DNA from: Paenibacillus sp. cl123
GTDB lineage: Bacteria; Bacillota; Bacilli; Paenibacillales; NBRC-103111
NCBI RefSeq assembly: GCF_900101595.1
Contig: NZ_FMYY01000007.1
Location: 62,001 to 126,000, forward strand
DNA length: 64,000 bases
Direction of reading: 5' to 3'
Positions within the stretch are counted from its first letter, which is position 1. The number at the start of each line of letters is the position of its first letter. The notes beneath the pieces are model-generated. The model was not told where the DNA came from. It did not search any database and saw only the letters and a list, made by a program, of their open reading frames with translations. The position numbers and the translations under genes were made by a program. Positions 9,060-64,000 of this stretch are shown in pieces.

Positions 9060-9320
9060 TTGTACTTGAATCTGCTAATAAACCGCTATATATTGAGAGA
9101 AGCCGGGCCTATAAGCTTAATTAAGCTCGCCAACAAAAACGGCTTGCGTCACGGCAATCTGATCACATTCCGCACGATGCTGGACTATGATGAAATCTCC
9201 CAGCTCGCCAGCGTTCAGAAGCCTGTGCTTTTGCAGGTCATCCGGGATTTGCAGGAGAAGCGCATCCTGAGCTTCCAGGATAACGCCATGACTCTTCATC
9301 TCGGCAATCTGGCCGATTAA
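9060..9320 (+). pseudogene. Crp/Fnr-like winged-helix fragment, opposite to the hem genes
   Basis: A short plus-strand frame of 86 codons fills the hemY-hemL gap. Its translation reads like the C-terminal helix-turn-helix half of a Crp-type regulator: LIKLANKNGLRHGNLITF, then LDYDEISQLASVQKPVLL and IRDLQEKRILSF. There is no cyclic-nucleotide domain. The frame is closed by a TAA directly before its TTG, and no ribosome site is visible. It may be a decayed remnant, or chance. The similarity is by eye only. Confidence 0.35.
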
Positions 9321-9342
9321 CCCGTCAAACGGTCTGCCCACC

Positions 9343-10794
9343 CTACCGGGCGCCCGTCTTAAGCTGCTTCGCCAGGTCCAGCGCCGATTCCTTCCCTTGG
9401 CGCACGCAGTCGGGCAGCCCTACGCCGTAAAAGGCAGCGCCGGTTACCCGCACGCCGGGCAAAGCGGCGGCAACCGCTTCGCGGACGCGCCGCACTCGCT
9501 CGAGATGACCGACCGGGTACTGGGGCATGGAGCGCAGCAGCGGAGTCATCTCGGTAAACAGCGACTCCGCCGTAACGCCCATGATCTCTTTCAAATCCTT
9601 GCGCACAGCGCGGATCACTTCATCCTCCGTCATATGCAGCCAGCGGTCGTCGCCTGACCGGCCGACGTAGAAGCGAAGCAGCACCTTGCCGCTTGGCGCC
9701 GTATGCAGCCATTTGACGGAGGTCCAGGTACAAGCCGTAATAAATCGTCCTTCCCCGCGCGGGATGACGAAGCCCGAGCCGTCGAGCTTCGCCTTCAGGT
9801 CGCTCTCGTCGAAGGCCATGACGATATTCGCTACGGATACATGCTCGATCGCCTTAAGCTCCGCCGCGGCAGCCGGCGCCGATTCCTCCAGCAGGCCTGC
9901 CATCGCATAGGCCGGCAGCGTCACGATCACGCCGTCGGCTTCGTCCGTTCCGCCATCCTCCCGCACGAGACGGTATCCTCCGTCAGTGGACGTTACGGAG
10001 GTTATCCCGCAGCCCTTCACGAAGCGCACATTGTCCAACGCGTCGATCAGTCCATGAATGATCGTCTCCAGGCCATCCTTGAACGTCAGGAAGGTCGTAT
10101 TTTGAGCAACCTCGGGCAGCGTCCGGCTTTCCTGGCCGCCTTCCTTGCGGTTTTTCATCATGCCGAGGATCAGGCTGCGGTGCTTCTGCTCGATGCTGTG
10201 GAATTGAGGGAACGTCCCCTTCACGCTCAGCGAGTACGTGTCTCCGGCATAGATGCCGGCAAGCAGCGGCTCAGCGATCTGCGAAAGCACTTCGCGGCCC
10301 AGCCTCCTCTCCAGAAACTCGCCGAGCGATTCATCCTCCGTCGATTGCCGCTTCGGCAGAAACAGATCCAGCGCCGCTCTGGCCTTGGCCTTCGGCGAGA
10401 GCAGCCCGGTCCGCATGAACGGTCCGAGCCGTGTCGGAATGCCCAGCATCAGGCCGGGAGGCATGCGGTGAAGCTTGCCGCCCGAGAGAATATACGTCTT
10501 CTTCGCGTTCGGATTCGTGCCGGTCAGATGCTCTTCGAGACCAAGCTCGCGCGCCAGCTCAACTAATGCAGGCTTACGGGCCAGGAACGAGTCCGGCCCC
10601 TGCTCGATGACGAAGCCGTCCCGGTGAAGCGTCTTAATTTTGCCGCCGAACGTTTCGCTTTTCTCATAAACCGTAATCCGATAGGGAATTCCATCCTCTT
10701 CCATCTGCTTCTTCAAATAATAAGCCGCGCTAAGCCCGGTGATGCCGCCTCCGATGATAGCTGTGCGCCTGGGCGATATGTCCATAGCGGTCAT
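9343..10794 (-). CDS. hemY: Coproporphyrinogen III / protoporphyrinogen oxidase (HemY/CgoX type)
   Basis: FAD-dependent six-electron oxidase. In Firmicutes the HemY/CgoX type makes coproporphyrin III in the coproporphyrin-dependent pathway. The 483-aa protein begins with the FAD-binding IIGGGITGLSAAYYL (about residues 13-27). It contains GPDSFLARKPALVELARELGL and ends with the second FAD motif GAAFYGVGLPDCVRQG. The ATG at 10794 overlaps the hemH stop as ATGA, so translation is probably coupled. Order hemE-hemH-hemY is the usual Bacillus trio, here embedded in the larger cluster. Confidence 0.96.
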   Translation of the reverse strand: MTAMDISPRRTAIIGGGITGLSAAYYLKKQMEEDGIPYRITVYEKSETFGGKIKTLHRDGFVIEQGPDSFLARKPALVELARELGLEEHLTGTNPNAKKTYILSGGKLHRMPPGLMLGIPTRLGPFMRTGLLSPKAKARAALDLFLPKRQSTEDESLGEFLERRLGREVLSQIAEPLLAGIYAGDTYSLSVKGTFPQFHSIEQKHRSLILGMMKNRKEGGQESRTLPEVAQNTTFLTFKDGLETIIHGLIDALDNVRFVKGCGITSVTSTDGGYRLVREDGGTDEADGVIVTLPAYAMAGLLEESAPAAAAELKAIEHVSVANIVMAFDESDLKAKLDGSGFVIPRGEGRFITACTWTSVKWLHTAPSGKVLLRFYVGRSGDDRWLHMTEDEVIRAVRKDLKEIMGVTAESLFTEMTPLLRSMPQYPVGHLERVRRVREAVAAALPGVRVTGAAFYGVGLPDCVRQGKESALDLAKQLKTGAR

Positions 10795-11759
10795 TTCCCT
10801 TCGGCGAACGCCTGCGCATGCACCACATCGCTCAAGGTTTCCATATAGAGCGGGTCCGTGTTAAGCGAGCGCGTCCGTTCGAGGTGAAGGCCCAGCTCCT
10901 TGGCCTCAGCTTGCGCTTCGATATCCAGATCGTACAGCACTTCCAGATGATCCGATACGAAGCCTACGGGGCATACGAGCACATGGCTGGCCTGCCGCTC
11001 CACCTTAACCGTCTTCAGCACGTCCAGCAGGTCGGGTCCGAGCCAGGGGACGCCGGTTTGCCCCGCACTCTGCCAGGCGAACTGCCAGCGGGTAATGCCC
11101 GCCTGCGCGGCGACAGCGCGCGATGTTTCCAGCAACTGCTCGGGATACGGGTCGCGCATCTCGATAATTTTCTCCGGCAGGCTGTGGGCTGTGAACAGGA
11201 CCAGCACCTCGTCCTTCGGCGCATCCCCGAAGCGATGCATCGCCTCCTCGACGCGGACCGCGAGCGCTTCGATCAGCTTGGGGTGAAGGTGATAGCTGCG
11301 CACGAAGCTCATCTTCAGGCCCAGCTCATCGGCCTTTTCCTGCGCTCTTTTCATATATCCGCCGACGCTCATCACGGAATAATGCGGGGCCAGTACGACC
11401 CCGACCGCTTCCGTTATCCCGTCCGCCGCCATGCGCTCCACACCGTCTTCAATGAACGGGGCAGCATGCTTGAGCCCTTGATAGCAAACGAAGGTCGCGT
11501 CCGGATATTTTTCGTTCAATCTGTTCTCCAGCGCCTTTACCTGGTTGTCCGTATTTTCGCGGAGCGGAAATACGCCCCCGACGATCGCTTCATAGCGGTC
11601 CGTCAGATCCTTTAGCTGCTCGGGCGACGGGGGATTGCCGCGGCGGATATGCGTATAATAAGCCTCCACCTGCTCGATGCTCTCGGGAGTTCCGTAGGAC
11701 ATGACCAGCACGCCGATTTTCCGTGGGCCCGTCTGGTTAGTAGTGTGATGGCTCATCAT
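10791..11759 (-). CDS. hemH: Ferrochelatase (coproporphyrin type)
   Basis: Inserts Fe2+ into the porphyrin ring; Gram-positive members act on coproporphyrin III. The 322-aa product starts IGVLVMSYGTPES and contains LAPHYSVMSVGGY (His of the active site in PHYS), LFTAHSLPEKI and CPVGFVSDHLEVLYDLD. Length is usual for Bacillus HemH. The start overlaps the hemE stop by 4 nt (ATGA) and its own stop overlaps hemY, so hemE, hemH and hemY form one tightly coupled unit. The terminal coproheme decarboxylase HemQ is not in the window. Confidence 0.97.
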   Translation of the reverse strand: MMSHHTTNQTGPRKIGVLVMSYGTPESIEQVEAYYTHIRRGNPPSPEQLKDLTDRYEAIVGGVFPLRENTDNQVKALENRLNEKYPDATFVCYQGLKHAAPFIEDGVERMAADGITEAVGVVLAPHYSVMSVGGYMKRAQEKADELGLKMSFVRSYHLHPKLIEALAVRVEEAMHRFGDAPKDEVLVLFTAHSLPEKIIEMRDPYPEQLLETSRAVAAQAGITRWQFAWQSAGQTGVPWLGPDLLDVLKTVKVERQASHVLVCPVGFVSDHLEVLYDLDIEAQAEAKELGLHLERTRSLNTDPLYMETLSDVVHAQAFAEGK

Positions 11760-53549: not shown

Positions 53550-54725
53550 CTACGCCGTCGCTTCATCCTCCGAAGCCCCCGAATCGCCGTGCAGCTCCTG
53601 GAACAACTGAACAAGTCTGCCGTGCTTGCGCAGCGACTTCTCATGAATCAGATTCAGCTTGCCGTTGTCGAGCAGGCCGAACCGTTCGATCAGCTGCTCA
53701 TTCCCTTGCGACCAGTCGAAGCCGTCGAAGATGCGCAGGCATGTCGTCCAGTTTTTCGTATACTGCCCGTCCGTGAACAGGAAGCGATGCGCGAAAAGTG
53801 CGATGCTCTCCTGCATGGCGCGGGCCGAGGAGCTGTACTGCGGCAGTCCCGGCTGCTCCGGCATCAGCGGCAGCAAGGTCGTATAAAACTGATGCAATAT
53901 TTCAATATACATGCTGGGCTCGGACTTGATTTTCCGGGCCAGCTCGTAGGAAGGCTGCATCTTCCCTGTAAACAGCATCGTAGCCGTCGAATACAACCAG
54001 CTGAACGACGTGAAATTTTTGTTGTAGGCAGTCAAATTCGCCCGGCGCTCCACACCTGCTCCCTTGAGGAACATATTGTGGTCGACCACTTGCTGAATTA
54101 CGAGATTAAGCGGATCGATCGAGTCGAACGAATGGCCAAGCTCCTTGCTGACGAGTTGAACCTTCGAGTTGATATCCCCGAACAGCTGCTTCTCTTCTTC
54201 CTCGCTCAGACCGATGTAAATTTGCACCCCGAGCTCGCTCTCCATCAGCTCCAGTCTGCGGCGCTCCAACGCTTCAAGCTGACCGCTAAGCAGCTCCTCC
54301 TCAGTCACCGCTTCCGCGTTTTGCGGATTTTTGCGAATGACGATTTTCAAAGCCGCGAGCTTGCGTTCCAGGCGTCTTGCTTCCTTCAGCAACTGCTCGT
54401 TGACATAGCCAAGCGCCAAAATCCGGTGCTGTCCGTCCAGGATGCTAAGCTTGGAGCCGGGACGCAGCGATAATCCTTCGCTCGTCTTCGCCAGACTGAC
54501 CACATCGCGCAGCGACAGCGTCACCGGTCCGAAGAACACGCGGTCCAGCTCTCTTTCCTGCAAATAATTCGCAATCTTGCGGCGCTGTCCGCTGCTCAGC
54601 TTGCGCTGCACCATCGGGTCGATCGTCGTATAGTTAAGCAAATCCTGCACCTGAATAGGGATCGTCGCCAAGCCGAACCGTTCACAGAACGGATGAATGG
54701 TCATATTTAACCGTAAGCCGTCCAT
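53550..54725 (-). CDS. DGQHR-domain protein, DndB-like (second of pair)
   Basis: The 391-aa protein carries the DGQHR motif at residues 97-101 (LSILDGQHRILAL) and the second family element QLFGDINSKV (about 180-190), as in DndB-type proteins. It is paralogous to the gene directly upstream, with the same length. DndB regulates phosphorothioate modification loci, but no dndA/C/D/E genes are visible here, so the target is unknown. The ATG overlaps the stop of the upstream gene by 1 nt (TAATG). There is no signal or membrane span. The C-terminus is acidic. Confidence 0.85.
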   Translation of the reverse strand: MDGLRLNMTIHPFCERFGLATIPIQVQDLLNYTTIDPMVQRKLSSGQRRKIANYLQERELDRVFFGPVTLSLRDVVSLAKTSEGLSLRPGSKLSILDGQHRILALGYVNEQLLKEARRLERKLAALKIVIRKNPQNAEAVTEEELLSGQLEALERRRLELMESELGVQIYIGLSEEEEKQLFGDINSKVQLVSKELGHSFDSIDPLNLVIQQVVDHNMFLKGAGVERRANLTAYNKNFTSFSWLYSTATMLFTGKMQPSYELARKIKSEPSMYIEILHQFYTTLLPLMPEQPGLPQYSSSARAMQESIALFAHRFLFTDGQYTKNWTTCLRIFDGFDWSQGNEQLIERFGLLDNGKLNLIHEKSLRKHGRLVQLFQELHGDSGASEDEATA

Positions 54726-55900
54726 TAACCGACATCCTCCTTCTCTTGCAGCTCATCCTGCAGCTCATCCATCATATCCGACTCCCGGATCAGGAAAAGA
54801 TGATGCTCCTCATAGAATCCCTTGACATACTGGTAGGCCTTCATAATGCGCGAGCGTCTCGGCAAACGATCCTTCTCGTCGCCCGCATAGATCCCGTTCC
54901 AATCCAGATGCGGCAAAATATGCAGCGCATAATCCAGCGCATACCGGTTGAAGCTTCCGCTCTTGGTCGCCTCGCCGTGGAAGAACATCGCCAGCGCAAT
55001 CTGCAGGTTCTCCGACCAGCAGAGCTCTCCCTTCTCGGGAGCGGGGAGAAAGCGCAGCAGCCCCTCGAAATAATGGGAGGCTATCTCCATCTGCGACTCG
55101 ATATCTTTTTCTTCGAAGTAATAACTATTTCCGCGCGACGCAGATTTCAGCCGTCCTTCTGTGAGCCCGATCAATATTTCAATTAACAGATGATAAGAGA
55201 ACAAGTATTCAGGACCCTTACCCCGTTCCGTATACATATCGACGGGAATCTGTTTCATCACCGGGGCTTCCTCTACCAGCCGGGTAGCCAGCACATGGTA
55301 GAAGCGCCGCTGCTCGCGCAGCACGGCTAGGTTGCCGCCGATCTTGCGGGGCAGCTTATTAATATCCGAGAACAGCTGACGCTCCTGTCTGGCGTTAATA
55401 TCCAGATAAATCATCGTCGACATCGGAAATTGATACAGCTTGCTCAGCTTTTTGCCGATTTCCTCCATACGGTCGTACTCCCGGCGGTCCTTAGCCCGCG
55501 CCATGGCGCTTTGCAGCGTCTCCATCAGGCGTCTGAACGCCGCCAGACGATGCTGGCCGTCCACAACATACAGCTTCTCGATCGCCTGCAGACGGTAAGT
55601 CCCTGACCCGTGGTCATATTCGCCGGCTCCGCGCGCAGACAAAATCAGTCCCGGAAAATAGATGCCCTGCCCATGATCCAGATACAGCATAATGTAATCC
55701 ATCATCCGTGACAAATTTTGAGGAACGATCGCTCTTTGTACCTCCAGGTCAACTTCATAGATAGCAAACAGCTTGCTCATCGGCAGTGTCGTAGACAACG
55801 TCGCTTGACCGAATGTCCTAGAAAGCGCTCCCGGAATTTCGATAAAAGACGCGGCCTTTTGAACCGACAGCAATTCGGATAAGGATGAGATTTGATCCAT
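54725..55900 (-). CDS. DGQHR-domain protein, DndB-like (first of pair)
   Basis: The 391-aa protein has DGQHR at residues 114-118 (YVVDGQHRLAAF) and QLFSDINKLPRKIG (about 181-194). It resembles DndB/DGQHR proteins and its downstream partner. A family role in DNA sulfur modification control is known for DndB, but there is no modification enzyme here. The ATG is preceded by AGGAGG with a long spacing (about 14 nt). A promoter-like sequence lies upstream and the pair forms a two-gene operon. Confidence 0.85.
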   Translation of the reverse strand: MDQISSLSELLSVQKAASFIEIPGALSRTFGQATLSTTLPMSKLFAIYEVDLEVQRAIVPQNLSRMMDYIMLYLDHGQGIYFPGLILSARGAGEYDHGSGTYRLQAIEKLYVVDGQHRLAAFRRLMETLQSAMARAKDRREYDRMEEIGKKLSKLYQFPMSTMIYLDINARQERQLFSDINKLPRKIGGNLAVLREQRRFYHVLATRLVEEAPVMKQIPVDMYTERGKGPEYLFSYHLLIEILIGLTEGRLKSASRGNSYYFEEKDIESQMEIASHYFEGLLRFLPAPEKGELCWSENLQIALAMFFHGEATKSGSFNRYALDYALHILPHLDWNGIYAGDEKDRLPRRSRIMKAYQYVKGFYEEHHLFLIRESDMMDELQDELQEKEDVG

Positions 55901-55949
55901 GATTAAATTGAATTCCTCCTAACTGAGAAAAATAGGTTCATATACTCCC

Positions 55950-55980
55950 AGTATACACTTATTATTCCACAAACATTCAA
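55950..55980 (-). promoter_or_regulatory. Possible promoter of the DGQHR pair
   Basis: On the minus strand, TTGAAT (55975-55980) precedes TATACT (55950-55955) by 19 nt; the spacing is longer than ideal. The rest of 55981-56235 holds nothing recognisable. Confidence 0.35.
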
Positions 55981-58875: not shown

Positions 58876-61638
58876 CTAAATCTTTCTGACCGAAAAATTA
58901 TCAATCGCGTCGTTGACTGTAGATGCGCTAAATCCGGCCTTTGTGCCATGTCCTGCAAAGCTAACCCGCTTGTCATAAGCGGCATGCACAAGTACGTCGT
59001 TGATAAGCAGGAACACCGCACTGCCCTGCATGACAACCGTGTATTTGCGCGTTTCCCCCGCCGTCGAAGCTGGTGTAATGGTCGGAGACTCGAAAATGTT
59101 GGCCGTAAACTGGTTATTAATTCGAGTCGATACGCCTGCCCGCAATGAGAAGTTGACGGAAACCATATTTTGCGCGTCCTTAAGTCTCAGGCAAAGCGTA
59201 GGCCCGCCGTTATTCGCAAGCGCCGTATGGGTGACCGTCAATGCATAGTCATCCACGCCAGTCTCGATATATGCAAACTGGTTTGCTCCAGCCGTTCCCA
59301 CGCGCCGTAGTTGGCCGTCCGTGCCGCTCGGGTTGTAAATATCATACCTGTCTGTGCTATTACGCTCCCACGCCTTGGAGCCCTCGACACCAGTCTCAGC
59401 ATCGCCCAATGATGTACTGGATGGCCGGTTAAACGTATCGGATACCAAAAGTGGCAGCGGTGCGGCTGTTTTCGTAACGGCTGCGCTGTCCTGGCTCTCT
59501 ACGTCAAAGAGCGATACGGCCCTAACCGTGTATGTGTAGCTTATGCCAGAGGTCAAGCCGGAGTCGTAGAACAACGGCGTTTTGTAATCAATCGGAGTAG
59601 CCGTTACTTTCGTGCCGTTACGGTATACGTTAAACCCGCTTACGAAAAAGTCAGGCGACTCGTCCCAGGTTAGGAATGCATTCGTCTCCCCGACTGCGGC
59701 CTTGAATCCTGTCGGCTTCGCCGGAATCCGGTCCTCCACCTTGCGGAACGGCTGGAATGCCAATATGCGCTCCATATCTACGGCCTTTCGGATAATCTCA
59801 TGGCCGTACGGGATGGGATGCGTCATGTCGGTCGTGTATGCCGTACTGCGGAATCCACCGTTGCGCGGATTTTGCTTCTCGGTCGGATATGCGCCGTCAA
59901 AATATCCGTCGATTAGGCCATCAGCGTATGGCAGGGTAGATATCCAGTCATTAACCTGATCCCGGACATTACCCGGAGCGTACCATGTGCTGTAGATCGT
60001 ATTGATATTCGTAACGTTACGAGGGAGGATTTTCATTTGGTACACCATGATTTTTGGATTCGCCGCTTTGACCGCTGTAAAGGCGTTGGACAAGTTCGTT
60101 TTCATAGTCGCCAGGGAAGAACCGTTATCGTTAGTCCCGTAGTTGCCGATTGCATGTGTTGCAAACTTGGCTATATTCAGGCGAATAGTATTAAATTGCT
60201 GGAAATCCGCTACACGTTCGCCGCCGATGGAGATGTTTGCAAACGGTAATCCGGCTTCATAGCAGGCCCGCGCCCCGAAACCACGCTGATTCGGTAATTT
60301 TCCTGCAGCCTGATCGTCAGCCGATCCGGAATTGATCGAGTCGCCCCATAGGAGTACAGAAGGCGTTCTCTCTCCGGATTTTTCGACGCCAATGATAGCT
60401 AAAGGCATGAAAGAACCCGCAACGTCGGAGCTGCCCGTCAATACAGGGTTAACCGACTGGTCAAAGTCACAACGATCCTCTCCCACGACTTTGCCCTCTT
60501 GCAGCAGATTGTGCAGCGCTACAGCAGTTTTCGGATATTTTCCGTCTGTTGGAACAGAAATAAAGGACCGAATCCAAAAGTTTTGACCCTTTACGAACTC
60601 CAGTTCCAACGGGTGTGTATATTTGATTTCCCCCGGCTGGAATGTCAGCGATCGTGTACCCCCGGCATCCCAAGTGATCGGGTATCGTGTCAGGGCCTTG
60701 GTCGTAGGGTCCTCTACCTCGATTGCTAACTTAAGCGTCATCGTATTGGGCAAGGCTGATTCGCCACTAGATGCAGAGTAGACAAATTGCATTTTGTTAA
60801 AATTTTTCATCGCCGTGTGCTTGCTGCGAAAAGTTGCAGAAGTCAGCCAAATGCCGCTTGTTGGGTCAGATAAGCTGTTGGATACATAACCCTTATCGGC
60901 CACAAATGACCTTCCTTGGGGGTCCGAAATAGCTCCGTATTCAGTAGTTTGAGAGGGCAAGGTTTTTGCAGTAACCTGTTCGCTCGTTGCAGAAACATTT
61001 CCAGCTGCATCTCGGGCCTTGACAGTGTAAGTGTACGATGTTGCCGGTGAAACAGTATTGTCCGTGTAAGTCGTTGTCGCGCTGTTACTGATCTTAACTC
61101 CATTCCGGTACACATCATATCCAACAACTCCCACGTTATCGCTAGATGCAGTCCAACTAAGTTTGACCTGCGAGGCGGTTACCTCGGTGGCAGATAATCC
61201 CGTTGGTGCTGTTGGCGGCTGCGTGTCAATGGGATCAGGTTTTTCAGTCGGACCTAGATAGCTAATTTGCAGGGTCGGGGATCCCGACAAACCGAATGCA
61301 CGAAAGTCAGCCAGCTGCGCCGCTGATGTTAGCTGGAACTCACTACCCGCCTTACCAAGATGGCCGCTCGTTGAGGTTGGCAACGGAGGAGTTTTACGCC
61401 AGTACCTAATATCACCGGACTCGACACTGATTACTGCTTTCGTCGCATTCGAAGGAATATGTGCTAGTTGGGCAATAGCATTGACCGGTACACTTACTGT
61501 TTCGTTACCAACACCCACTCCCCCGGTATTTCCAAGTGTGTCAAGGACATCCTGAAGCATATCCCCGACATTTACCTTGGTGCCATCCTCCTTGAGGACT
61601 CCACCGTAACTGGGCTGGTAGTTGTTACTATCCACCAC
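58876..61638 (-). CDS. Phage tail fibre/tip protein with FN3 and SGNH hydrolase domains
   Basis: A protein of about 920 aa. The first FN3 domain is near residues 140-226 (PPTAPTGLSATEVTASQVKL), followed by a jelly-roll-like stretch. The SGNH/GDSL hydrolase has GDS at about 432-434, GTND at about 501-504 and Asp/His at about 604/607 (DMTHPIPYGHE). A second FN3 is near 650-720, then a LamG/concanavalin-like C-domain (SDTFNRPSSTSLGDAETG...). It probably binds and deacetylates host surface glycan. I chose GTG 61638 (GGAGGTG upstream); TTG 61653 is possible. Confidence 0.85.
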   Translation of the reverse strand: MVDSNNYQPSYGGVLKEDGTKVNVGDMLQDVLDTLGNTGGVGVGNETVSVPVNAIAQLAHIPSNATKAVISVESGDIRYWRKTPPLPTSTSGHLGKAGSEFQLTSAAQLADFRAFGLSGSPTLQISYLGPTEKPDPIDTQPPTAPTGLSATEVTASQVKLSWTASSDNVGVVGYDVYRNGVKISNSATTTYTDNTVSPATSYTYTVKARDAAGNVSATSEQVTAKTLPSQTTEYGAISDPQGRSFVADKGYVSNSLSDPTSGIWLTSATFRSKHTAMKNFNKMQFVYSASSGESALPNTMTLKLAIEVEDPTTKALTRYPITWDAGGTRSLTFQPGEIKYTHPLELEFVKGQNFWIRSFISVPTDGKYPKTAVALHNLLQEGKVVGEDRCDFDQSVNPVLTGSSDVAGSFMPLAIIGVEKSGERTPSVLLWGDSINSGSADDQAAGKLPNQRGFGARACYEAGLPFANISIGGERVADFQQFNTIRLNIAKFATHAIGNYGTNDNGSSLATMKTNLSNAFTAVKAANPKIMVYQMKILPRNVTNINTIYSTWYAPGNVRDQVNDWISTLPYADGLIDGYFDGAYPTEKQNPRNGGFRSTAYTTDMTHPIPYGHEIIRKAVDMERILAFQPFRKVEDRIPAKPTGFKAAVGETNAFLTWDESPDFFVSGFNVYRNGTKVTATPIDYKTPLFYDSGLTSGISYTYTVRAVSLFDVESQDSAAVTKTAAPLPLLVSDTFNRPSSTSLGDAETGVEGSKAWERNSTDRYDIYNPSGTDGQLRRVGTAGANQFAYIETGVDDYALTVTHTALANNGGPTLCLRLKDAQNMVSVNFSLRAGVSTRINNQFTANIFESPTITPASTAGETRKYTVVMQGSAVFLLINDVLVHAAYDKRVSFAGHGTKAGFSASTVNDAIDNFSVRKI

Positions 61639-61698
61639 TTTGAACACCTCCAAGTCAAATAACCCCGAAACCTGTCGGGGTCTAAAATTGAATATATG

Positions 61699-61707
61699 TG
61701 GTATACT
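61699..61707 (+). promoter_or_regulatory. Extended -10 promoter of the stalk-domain gene
   Basis: TGG-TATACT (61699-61707) forms an extended -10 about 27 nt before the TTG start; no good -35 is seen. It would express this gene separately from the tail operon. Confidence 0.45.
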
Positions 61708-61733
61708 GATGCTAAAAAAAGGAGTTGGTAGTT

Positions 61734-62279
61734 TTGAAAAAAGTAATCATCGCCCTGTCCCTCGGCATGCTGATAGGATCGGCAGCGACGGCCGTAGCCG
61801 CGACGAGCGAGACGGTGCAGGCGACTATCGCCAAGTTCGTTATAAAGGTCAATGGGCAGGAAAAGCAGCTTACTACCTCTCCTATCGTTGTTGATGGAAA
61901 CTCTTATCTCCCTGTGCGCGAAGTCGCCGGTCTGCTTGGGGCCAAAGTAGCATATGACGATGCAACCCGTACGATTTCATTGCAAACACCCGTTCCCGTT
62001 GGTAAGATTGAAGAAAAGAAGGAAGCGGGTGCCGAGAAAATGGAGGATTGGATTTCTCTAGAAACTTTAGTTAAAAACTTTAATGTCGAAGCTTTTGGAG
62101 CATTTGATGGTTTGCTATTAAAGTACGGAAATGAAAGTCTACAAATATCATTGCCGTCAGAGAAAACAGGGGAACAAATTGCCACCAGCGCCAAGGGCAA
62201 TATCAACGTCATGTTTATTGACGGGACTACTTACCTTGATAAATATGACTTAATAAAACTGGGTATTATCCAGAATTAA
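61734..62279 (+). CDS. Secreted stalk-domain (copper amine oxidase N-like) protein in prophage
   Basis: The 181-aa product starts at TTG 61734 with GGAG 8 nt upstream. A signal peptide (residues 1-23, MKKVIIALSLGMLIGSAAT...) is followed by a short stalk domain KFVIKVNGQEKQLTTSPIVVDGNSYLPVREVAGLLGAKVAYDDATRTISLQT (about residues 35-85), a charged Lys/Glu linker and a C-terminal alpha/beta part. It is encoded on the strand opposite to the surrounding tail genes and its stop overlaps the tail gene's stop by 4 nt. A lysogenic cargo gene is likely; function is unknown. Confidence 0.8.
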   Translation: MKKVIIALSLGMLIGSAATAVAATSETVQATIAKFVIKVNGQEKQLTTSPIVVDGNSYLPVREVAGLLGAKVAYDDATRTISLQTPVPVGKIEEKKEAGAEKMEDWISLETLVKNFNVEAFGAFDGLLLKYGNESLQISLPSEKTGEQIATSAKGNINVMFIDGTTYLDKYDLIKLGIIQN

Positions 62280-64000
62280 AAATCTCCGCCCCCTCTAGAC
62301 TGGCAGAACACTTGGGTGTTAATGCTGGCTACGATCCTCCCGAGGCTGTTTGGTATCACCTCAACATTATGCCAGCCTCGGTTTATCTTCCCCCCTCCAT
62401 CCTTTGATAAATAAGGGATGATATCAATATCGTCCGCATTCGTCCCCAAACCCGGAATAACTACCCCATCTACTTTTACCATAATTGCAGAAGGTATTGG
62501 CCCCTCGAAGATTCCATACTCCATTTCGTGATTGTGTGCTGGTATTTCATGTGTATGGTCCATATCATGGGTGTGTGAAGCGATTTGATGCGTATGTTCC
62601 ATGTTATGGACATGGCTTCCTATCGTGTGTGTATGATCCATACCATGAGTGTGGTCAAGGGTAGCATACTTGTGGTAATGGTGAACTAGCCCATGTCTAT
62701 GATTCCCCGATGGAACCCATGTCACATAACCGCCACCGACTGTCATAAGTTGGACACCAGCGCTGATTCCGTGATCATGTAGTCCTGTAAATGACATCAC
62801 GTCCCCTGGCCCATAGTTATAAGTAAAAGGCCAGAAATCCCCTTCTGTAGGAGTTTCCAAATTATTAGCACCACTAGGATTAGTTGTCGTCGTGCTGCTC
62901 GGCCCGCTCGTTGTCGCCCCACCTGCCGCCGTTGTAGTGGCACTGCTTGAGCCGCTCGTCTGCCCGCCGCCGCTCGCTGTGGTTGTCTTGCTGCTTGGCC
63001 CGGAGGAAACCGCAGGAGCCGCTTGGATTGGCCTGTTATATCCTCGAAACGCCTCCGACTTGTACGATAATAGAACCTTGTTAACCCGGACTGCCTGCTC
63101 GTCAATGCGGAAGCGCAGCACGGCAGGATGAGTTGGGTCGCAGTTATCAGCAAAGTCATGGGAGTCTAGGTTGGTAGCTCCTTGAGCGTATACTTCTCCA
63201 ATTCGCTGCCGATTGGCAAGGTCCGCGATGGTTCCAGCAATATCCTGTGGTCGATTGGCAATCTCCAGTTCCACCGCCCCTGGTTGTCCGCGAACGTCCC
63301 GCTTCCTTTTGTTGACAACGCGCGCCGTGAAGTCAATCCCCATTTCCTTATCTTGCACGCGGACCAACGCCCCGCTATAAAACTTGTAGATAGGTGTGTC
63401 TGAGAACCTTCCAATCTCAGAAGCCGCCACCGTGTACGTGATACGAGGCTGCTTAAGCTCGGATAGAAGCGCCTCACAGCGAGCAAGCAGGGTTTCTGGA
63501 TATTCGAACCTCCGATCCGCCATGACGCGGGAAATTACCCCATACTGAGCTTGGGAGGCTGCATCCTCAATATATGGTCGGCCAGCGTTGATCTCTGCAA
63601 ACGTAAGCTGATTGACGCCCTCGCCGTATCCAAGGCCATAGATTCGGTTGCAGAGGTTAGTGGGATCGACAGTCTTTTCTACGCCTTGCATGTTGACGCC
63701 ATACCGGATATACGCCTCTACAAGCTGCGGCGGCTCAACAAGGTTAATGCGCCAAGGGTAGACCGTTGTGTCATAGGTCCATTGGTATTGCTCCGTGAAT
63801 GGCCTTGGGACGCTGATTAGCGCGGCCAGAAGTGTCTCGTTCTCCCAGTTGTACTCAAATTGCCTGCTGATCCCGACCGAACCGAGCTGCCAACGTTTGA
63901 CGGTCTGATTGCTCAGGATATACTGCAGCACATTTGCCGTCGGATAGCCAAGGTTGCCCACCGTGTGGTACTGGAACAGCACGTCATCCAGCAGCGTCGC
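62276..64000 (-). CDS. Phage tail spike/endopeptidase-type structural protein, with His-rich repeats (cut by window edge)
   Basis: The frame is open from beyond base 64000. It reads as a phage minor structural/tail spike protein (ATLLDDVLFQYHTVGNLGYPTANVLQYILSNQTVKRWQLGSVG). In the second half comes a Ser/Gly/Thr-rich linker with SSGPSS units, then a His-rich region at about 62521-62690 (HTH, HVH, HNH motifs such as DHTHGMDHTHTIGSHVH), and a C-terminal knob. HxH motifs can bind metal in trimeric needle tips. The stop overlaps the stalk-protein stop. Confidence 0.85.
   Translation of the reverse strand, partial: ATLLDDVLFQYHTVGNLGYPTANVLQYILSNQTVKRWQLGSVGISRQFEYNWENETLLAALISVPRPFTEQYQWTYDTTVYPWRINLVEPPQLVEAYIRYGVNMQGVEKTVDPTNLCNRIYGLGYGEGVNQLTFAEINAGRPYIEDAASQAQYGVISRVMADRRFEYPETLLARCEALLSELKQPRITYTVAASEIGRFSDTPIYKFYSGALVRVQDKEMGIDFTARVVNKRKRDVRGQPGAVELEIANRPQDIAGTIADLANRQRIGEVYAQGATNLDSHDFADNCDPTHPAVLRFRIDEQAVRVNKVLLSYKSEAFRGYNRPIQAAPAVSSGPSSKTTTASGGGQTSGSSSATTTAAGGATTSGPSSTTTTNPSGANNLETPTEGDFWPFTYNYGPGDVMSFTGLHDHGISAGVQLMTVGGGYVTWVPSGNHRHGLVHHYHKYATLDHTHGMDHTHTIGSHVHNMEHTHQIASHTHDMDHTHEIPAHNHEMEYGIFEGPIPSAIMVKVDGVVIPGLGTNADDIDIIPYLSKDGGGKINRGWHNVEVIPNSLGRIVASINTQVFCQSRGGGDF

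Follow-up and report, generated by a model that had tools for sequence, protein, structure and literature searches.

The 64,000-nucleotide (nt) stretch of Paenibacillus sp. cl123 analysed here (contig NZ_FMYY01000007.1, positions 62,001 to 126,000; hereafter, the window) carries on its minus strand a tandem pair of DGQHR (DndB-like) genes, each with an ATG start and a product of 391 amino acids. The first, upstream gene (P0002, 54725..55900) encodes DGQHR and FSDIN motifs and the second (P0001, 53550..54725) encodes DGQHR and FGDIN, both products matching the Pfam family PF14072. At their junction (54723..54742, minus strand), the sequence AAGGAGG (54742-54736), which resembles a ribosome-binding site, sits inside the 3' part of the first gene and is followed by TAATG, where the stop codon TAA (54727-54725) shares 1 nt with the start codon ATG (54725-54723; junction letters TTAATGG). 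These coordinates bear out a first-pass annotation, made from the sequence alone, which had described adjacent genes for 391-residue proteins coupled by 1 nt. The same annotation called the two proteins similar, and this applies to their family profiles, which align with 99% probability over query columns 14-340 in a profile comparison, but hardly to the sequences themselves, whose identity is just 21% (BLASTP E 6e-9).

Both proteins belong to the broad DndB family, exceeding the PF14072 threshold of 29.1 bits at 76.1 and 60.7, and for the DGQHR model TIGR03187 (cut-off 58.85 bits) the second protein scores 63.6, while the first falls just short at 57.3. PF14072 and DGQHR are what the pair has in common with DndB, the regulator of the dnd phosphorothioation operon. 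Nevertheless, the pair differs from DndB in having two distinct genes per unit that form clades of their own, in that no dnd genes were found with it, and in scoring only 25.0 and 22.4 bits with the DndB equivalog model TIGR03233, far under its cut-off of 328. On sequence grounds, the pair is not DndB, because of these equivalog scores and because the DndB proteins group apart in the tree described below. The first-pass annotation had reported no dnd genes nearby, and this holds genome-wide for DndC (no match) and DndD (none over the cut-off, the best reaching 20.3 bits vs. 245.85), Pgl and Ssp genes not having been tested; a third PF14072 protein was likewise not found in the genome, which supports a stand-alone pair outside sulfur modification.

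Among 104 genomes of the window's family, 89 of which bear the pair, DndC exceeded its cut-off in nine, all pair-bearing, and gave any match at E ≤ 0.001 in 19, of which 17 were pair-bearing. Homologues of the pair are thus not always accompanied by dnd genes elsewhere in the genome, since 80 of the 89 pair-bearing genomes had no DndC over the cut-off and 72 had no DndC match at all. Another early suggestion, by which the two are orphan DndB proteins regulating a remote dnd locus, would be compatible with PF14072 membership, with the product names containing "DndB" given to distant relatives, and with the 17 genomes holding a DndC match (nine over the cut-off), but this explanation is contradicted by the equivalog scores, by the separate clade, by the 72 genomes with no DndC match and by a genome that offers neither a DndC match nor DndD over the cut-off, and we consider it highly improbable. 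The absence of DndC from most pair-bearing genomes also makes the name DndB, carried by distant relatives under the public label "DNA sulfur modification protein DndB", very likely wrong for the tandem clade; mostly devoid of sulfur genes, the pair therefore probably does something else to DNA.

When a collection with one genome per species was scanned with the second protein, 57 named loci were recovered from Paenibacillus, unclassified Paenibacillaceae and one Cohnella, copies of the window's own locus (L001, L059-L061, L141, L151, L154) being kept outside this number. The first gene lies directly upstream of the second at all 57 loci, and the adjacency is therefore beyond chance; the genes overlap by 1 nt at 56 of them and by 13 nt at the remaining one. 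DGQHR and F(G/S)DIN, which the first-pass annotation had recognized in each protein, were confirmed in the window and are intact in both genes at 57/57 loci. A count of co-occurrence, also proposed there, proved complete, with each gene present in the identical 89 of the 104 family genomes and both absent from the identical 15, so that a duplication without conserved co-occurrence does not describe the second gene. By genus, the distribution was all-or-none (22 sampled, 14 with the pair and eight without). The pair is kept even in a 2.4-megabase (Mb) genome, and in one of the 89 genomes (G023) both genes are broken into pieces in different frames. Selection on both genes is strongly purifying, with ratios of nonsynonymous to synonymous substitution rates (dN/dS) of 0.009-0.073 per gene in eight comparisons each, some with dS above 1. 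Within the window's family, the pair behaves as a vertically kept core gene pair. A search of 240 other genomes of the order, for which the first gene alone served as query (in G657 too), found a full-length copy in G657 alone, a fragment with a stop in G660, and two weak matches. Separately, one family genome (G017, contig C19) carries the pair twice, at a distance of about 71 kilobases (kb), and an apparent gene fusion at L017 (2012-codon open frame) was rejected, being due to a stretch of undetermined bases (N), which also hides the start of the first gene there.

The flanks vary between clades of the window's family and the pair itself stays intact; a convergent ROK-family gene follows it in the window and at 30 of the 57 named loci, with other genes elsewhere. 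Upstream of the first gene, on the same minus strand, are a ribosome-binding-like stretch containing AGGAGG (55910..55922), a conserved block ATATGAACCTA that is a possible operator (55933..55943) and, adjoining it, a conserved promoter-like element, TGAATGTTT-N12-GTGTATACTGG (55948..55979). In an alignment of 17 sequences, TGAATGTTT-N12-GTGTATAATGG followed by ATATGAACCTA was kept across much of the window's clade. The ATATGAACCTA block occurs once each at 25 of the 57 named loci, always upstream of the first gene, with no exact copy at the other 32. The pair's own copy of the promoter-like element is the sole match in the 7.3-Mb genome at up to three mismatches, and a wider regulon was rejected on this ground. 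A generic sigma-70 scan returned two hits vs. 1.8 expected, the promoter-like element not among them, and no LexA box was found at up to two mismatches in 57 upstream sequences (the window and 56 loci); other sigma-factor patterns, present in 0 to 8 of 57 and lacking a control, were dropped. The upstream block is best read, from its conservation, as a promoter with a possible operator dedicated to the pair, and autoregulation may be inferred from DndB.

In the tree, which was built from 42 proteins with a midpoint root, six proteins of the DndB type (PF14072 E-values of about 1e-120 or below) form a group of their own (support 96/98) with the pair proteins outside it. The input included these six and nine single proteins from one set of 30 loci and three more singles from another; L138 stayed outside, as did L094 (G353), a near copy of L092 (G406), which was also dropped from the neighbour counts. 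All twelve first-position proteins cluster together (89/81, recovered in 94% of bootstrap trees); the twelve second-position proteins, together with the second protein of a decayed pair (L102), make up another cluster (86/88). Three sub-groups recur identically in the first-gene and second-gene clades with moderate support, as would be expected of a unit duplicated once and then inherited together. The second gene could instead be a recent, redundant tandem duplicate, in line with its family, length and adjacency, but 21% identity, the extension of both clades into distant Bacilli and complete co-occurrence across 104 genomes contradict this, and its probability is close to nil. A separate Bacilli clade of single DGQHR proteins, neither DndB nor pair (L128, L129, L131, L132, L134), was also observed; these singles are divergently oriented to apparent small helix-turn-helix regulators beside them, labelled by eye.

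The first protein is predicted to combine a ParB/Srx-like N-terminal domain (approximately residues 30-186) with a helical C-terminal part. The fold search was made with the model of this protein alone, that of the second being poor and of low confidence, and its best Foldseek matches include ParB, Noc, BrxU and DndI, none at E ≤ 0.001. A sequence search of PDB with either protein or with wider profiles gave no credible match. Among Pfam matches up to E = 1, neither protein showed a nuclease domain, and the ParB-like N-terminal domain of GmrSD appeared as a match below the cut-off. The literature places DndB itself in the ParB superfamily, and DpdB of the Dpd (deazaguanine) system, for which dpdA and dpdC would be the expected companions, is mentioned in PMC12839542. 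SspE, BrxU/GmrSD and DndI, restriction or defence proteins with a ParB-like N-terminal domain, are each one multidomain protein, whereas two subunits are encoded here, and Pfam showed no nuclease domain in them. In contrast to the ParB/Noc CTPase clamps, the window encodes a hetero-pair whose C-terminal part is different.

Across the class, the second-gene profile matched 10 of 398 genomes, own genome included; in seven of the remaining nine the genes stand in tandem, overlapping or at most four bases apart, two of these seven (G353, G406) being near copies. At the level of the phylum, a wider second-gene profile matched 10 of 299 genomes including the own one, the other nine with one weak match each. 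The second protein matched none of 50,697 phage records, and two other plasmid records carry one single DGQHR gene each. These accessory tandem pairs of other Bacilli keep the gene order of the window, with overlapping or close genes, and fall into the same two clades where included in the tree; however, they are scattered, and some adjoin Gabija genes or mobile elements, unlike those of the window's family.

On the Priestia megaterium plasmid NZ_CP059463 (L137), the pair, both genes annotated as DndB, is followed by a DUF4365 gene, with a UvrD helicase matching GajB (E 3e-103) and an AAA ATPase matching GajA (E 2e-195), both nearly full length, on the opposite strand. The DUF4365 gene (9117-10916) lies directly downstream of the pair on the same strand and gave no PADLOC match at E ≤ 0.001; its product could be a third component there. 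At L097, full-length GajA and a truncated GajB covering half the profile lie 5-6 kb upstream of the pair, with IS21-type genes between. The pair at L102 (8473-11538) has decayed; its genome (G087) belongs to the window's family and holds the core pair too. It has a whole second gene and, directly upstream, a first gene reduced to a stub that resembles first-gene residues approximately 3-63 (43-49% identity), with GajB fragments about 1 kb upstream. On an IMG/VR contig (L138), a pair stands about 4 kb from an ATPase matching Toprim- and PtuA-type models. Among eight distant pairs, the Gabija genes beside one are complete, those beside another comprise full-length GajA and truncated GajB, and no Gabija was seen at five others. 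With PADLOC at E ≤ 1e-15, the 103 flanking proteins of nine distant loci matched 118 families, many of which are overlapping models that hit one small set of proteins, and Gabija genes or fragments were present at three of the nine. For the window's family, where 169 flanking proteins from 14 loci were known, 92 from eight loci were scanned (five of those loci's 97 omitted), and only two families (mad2, mad3) were matched.

A strong GajA match (E ≤ 1e-60) was found in at least 15 of 289 class genomes, a lower bound with at most four candidates scored per genome. Because GajA is this rare, the presence of a full-length copy no more than 6 kb from two of the eight distant pairs is probably not a coincidence, though no control with random loci from these genomes was made. 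Together with the Gabija, GajB-fragment and Toprim/PtuA-type neighbours, and with BrxU and DndI structure entries whose titles name restriction or antiphage proteins, this argues that the pair is active against phages in the window's own family, where the heteromer would block replication on sensing foreign DNA entering the cell or a nucleotide change induced by phage, as its accessory cousins may do. We regard it as rather unlikely, given that near-universal presence, an all-or-none pattern by genus and dN/dS below 0.08 are unlike a mobile defence system, that defence families are nearly missing from the family flanks, that neither protein has a nuclease domain, and that five of the eight distant pairs stand clear of Gabija. 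The DNA-defence module proposed in the first-pass annotation is thus backed, indirectly, by some distant pairs, but not by the neighbours at the eight family loci.

The same core-like conservation, purifying selection and retention in a 2.4-Mb genome would suit a chromosomal housekeeping role: bound to DNA like ParB or Noc, the pair would act as a switch for replication, segregation, sporulation or competence, and the cousins beside defence genes would put the same unit to a separate use. ParB and Noc rank high among the structural matches, and comK lies directly downstream of the accessory pairs at two sister loci, L091 (10609-11130) and L096 (10270-10872), where the second protein has DGSKR or DGTQR in place of DGQHR. 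For a basic function, however, it would be odd that 15 family genomes lack the pair and that the full-length first gene occurs in one of 240 other genomes of the order, and no fixed neighbours hint at a pathway; we therefore hold this explanation to be unlikely.

The reading to which we would give an even chance, taken whole, is that the pair forms an obligate two-subunit complex of the ParB/Srx superfamily, switched on DNA by nucleoside triphosphate (NTP), distinct from DndB and without a part in phosphorothioation. Its basis in sequence is a two-gene unit with fixed order, stop-start overlap, purifying selection and, in the window's clade, a conserved upstream element. The first and second genes would encode two different subunits of one heteromer, each binding an NTP in a pocket around DGQHR, and NTP binding or hydrolysis would switch the heteromer on or off DNA. 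Such a complex would regulate or survey DNA with no effector nuclease of its own and perhaps act on its own promoter too, like DndB. The core pair and the accessory pairs of other Bacilli, some beside defence genes, would share a common ancestor, and most genera of the window's family would since have made the pair part of their core genome. More tentatively, and with the doubts on the larger side, a so far undescribed immune switch, an accessory two-subunit ParB/Srx-fold unit of scattered Bacilli that can travel with Gabija-type genes, might have been domesticated in one Paenibacillus-type family into a near-universal core pair with its own promoter, serving there as built-in DNA surveillance or regulation unrelated to DNA sulfur.

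Two further observations concern the rest of the window. Upstream of the pair, from a distance of about 3 kb, come phage-type structural genes (58876-63982, minus strand), whose products PHROGs labels as tail-protein-like/esterase and as minor head/tail protein; they may represent a prophage or phage remnant at the window end. A T-box leader (Rfam RF00230, 103.8 bits) is located at 1753-2011 on the minus strand.

DndB-like ParB/Srx proteins are already known as a kind. A tandem DGQHR/DndB-like pair was not met in the accessible portions of the full-text literature on DGQHR or DndB, including that on Gabija and Paenibacillus, a coverage that leaves out preprints and most subscription journals; apparently undescribed are the form with two genes, the fact that one family has fixed it, and the cousins it has beside Gabija genes. 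In brief, if the proposed reading is true, a constrained core two-protein candidate for an NTP switch, with cousins on the defence side, would offer a clean case of an immune module turned to housekeeping, or of the reverse, and the pair would also bear on the roles of ParB-fold switches beyond chromosome partition.
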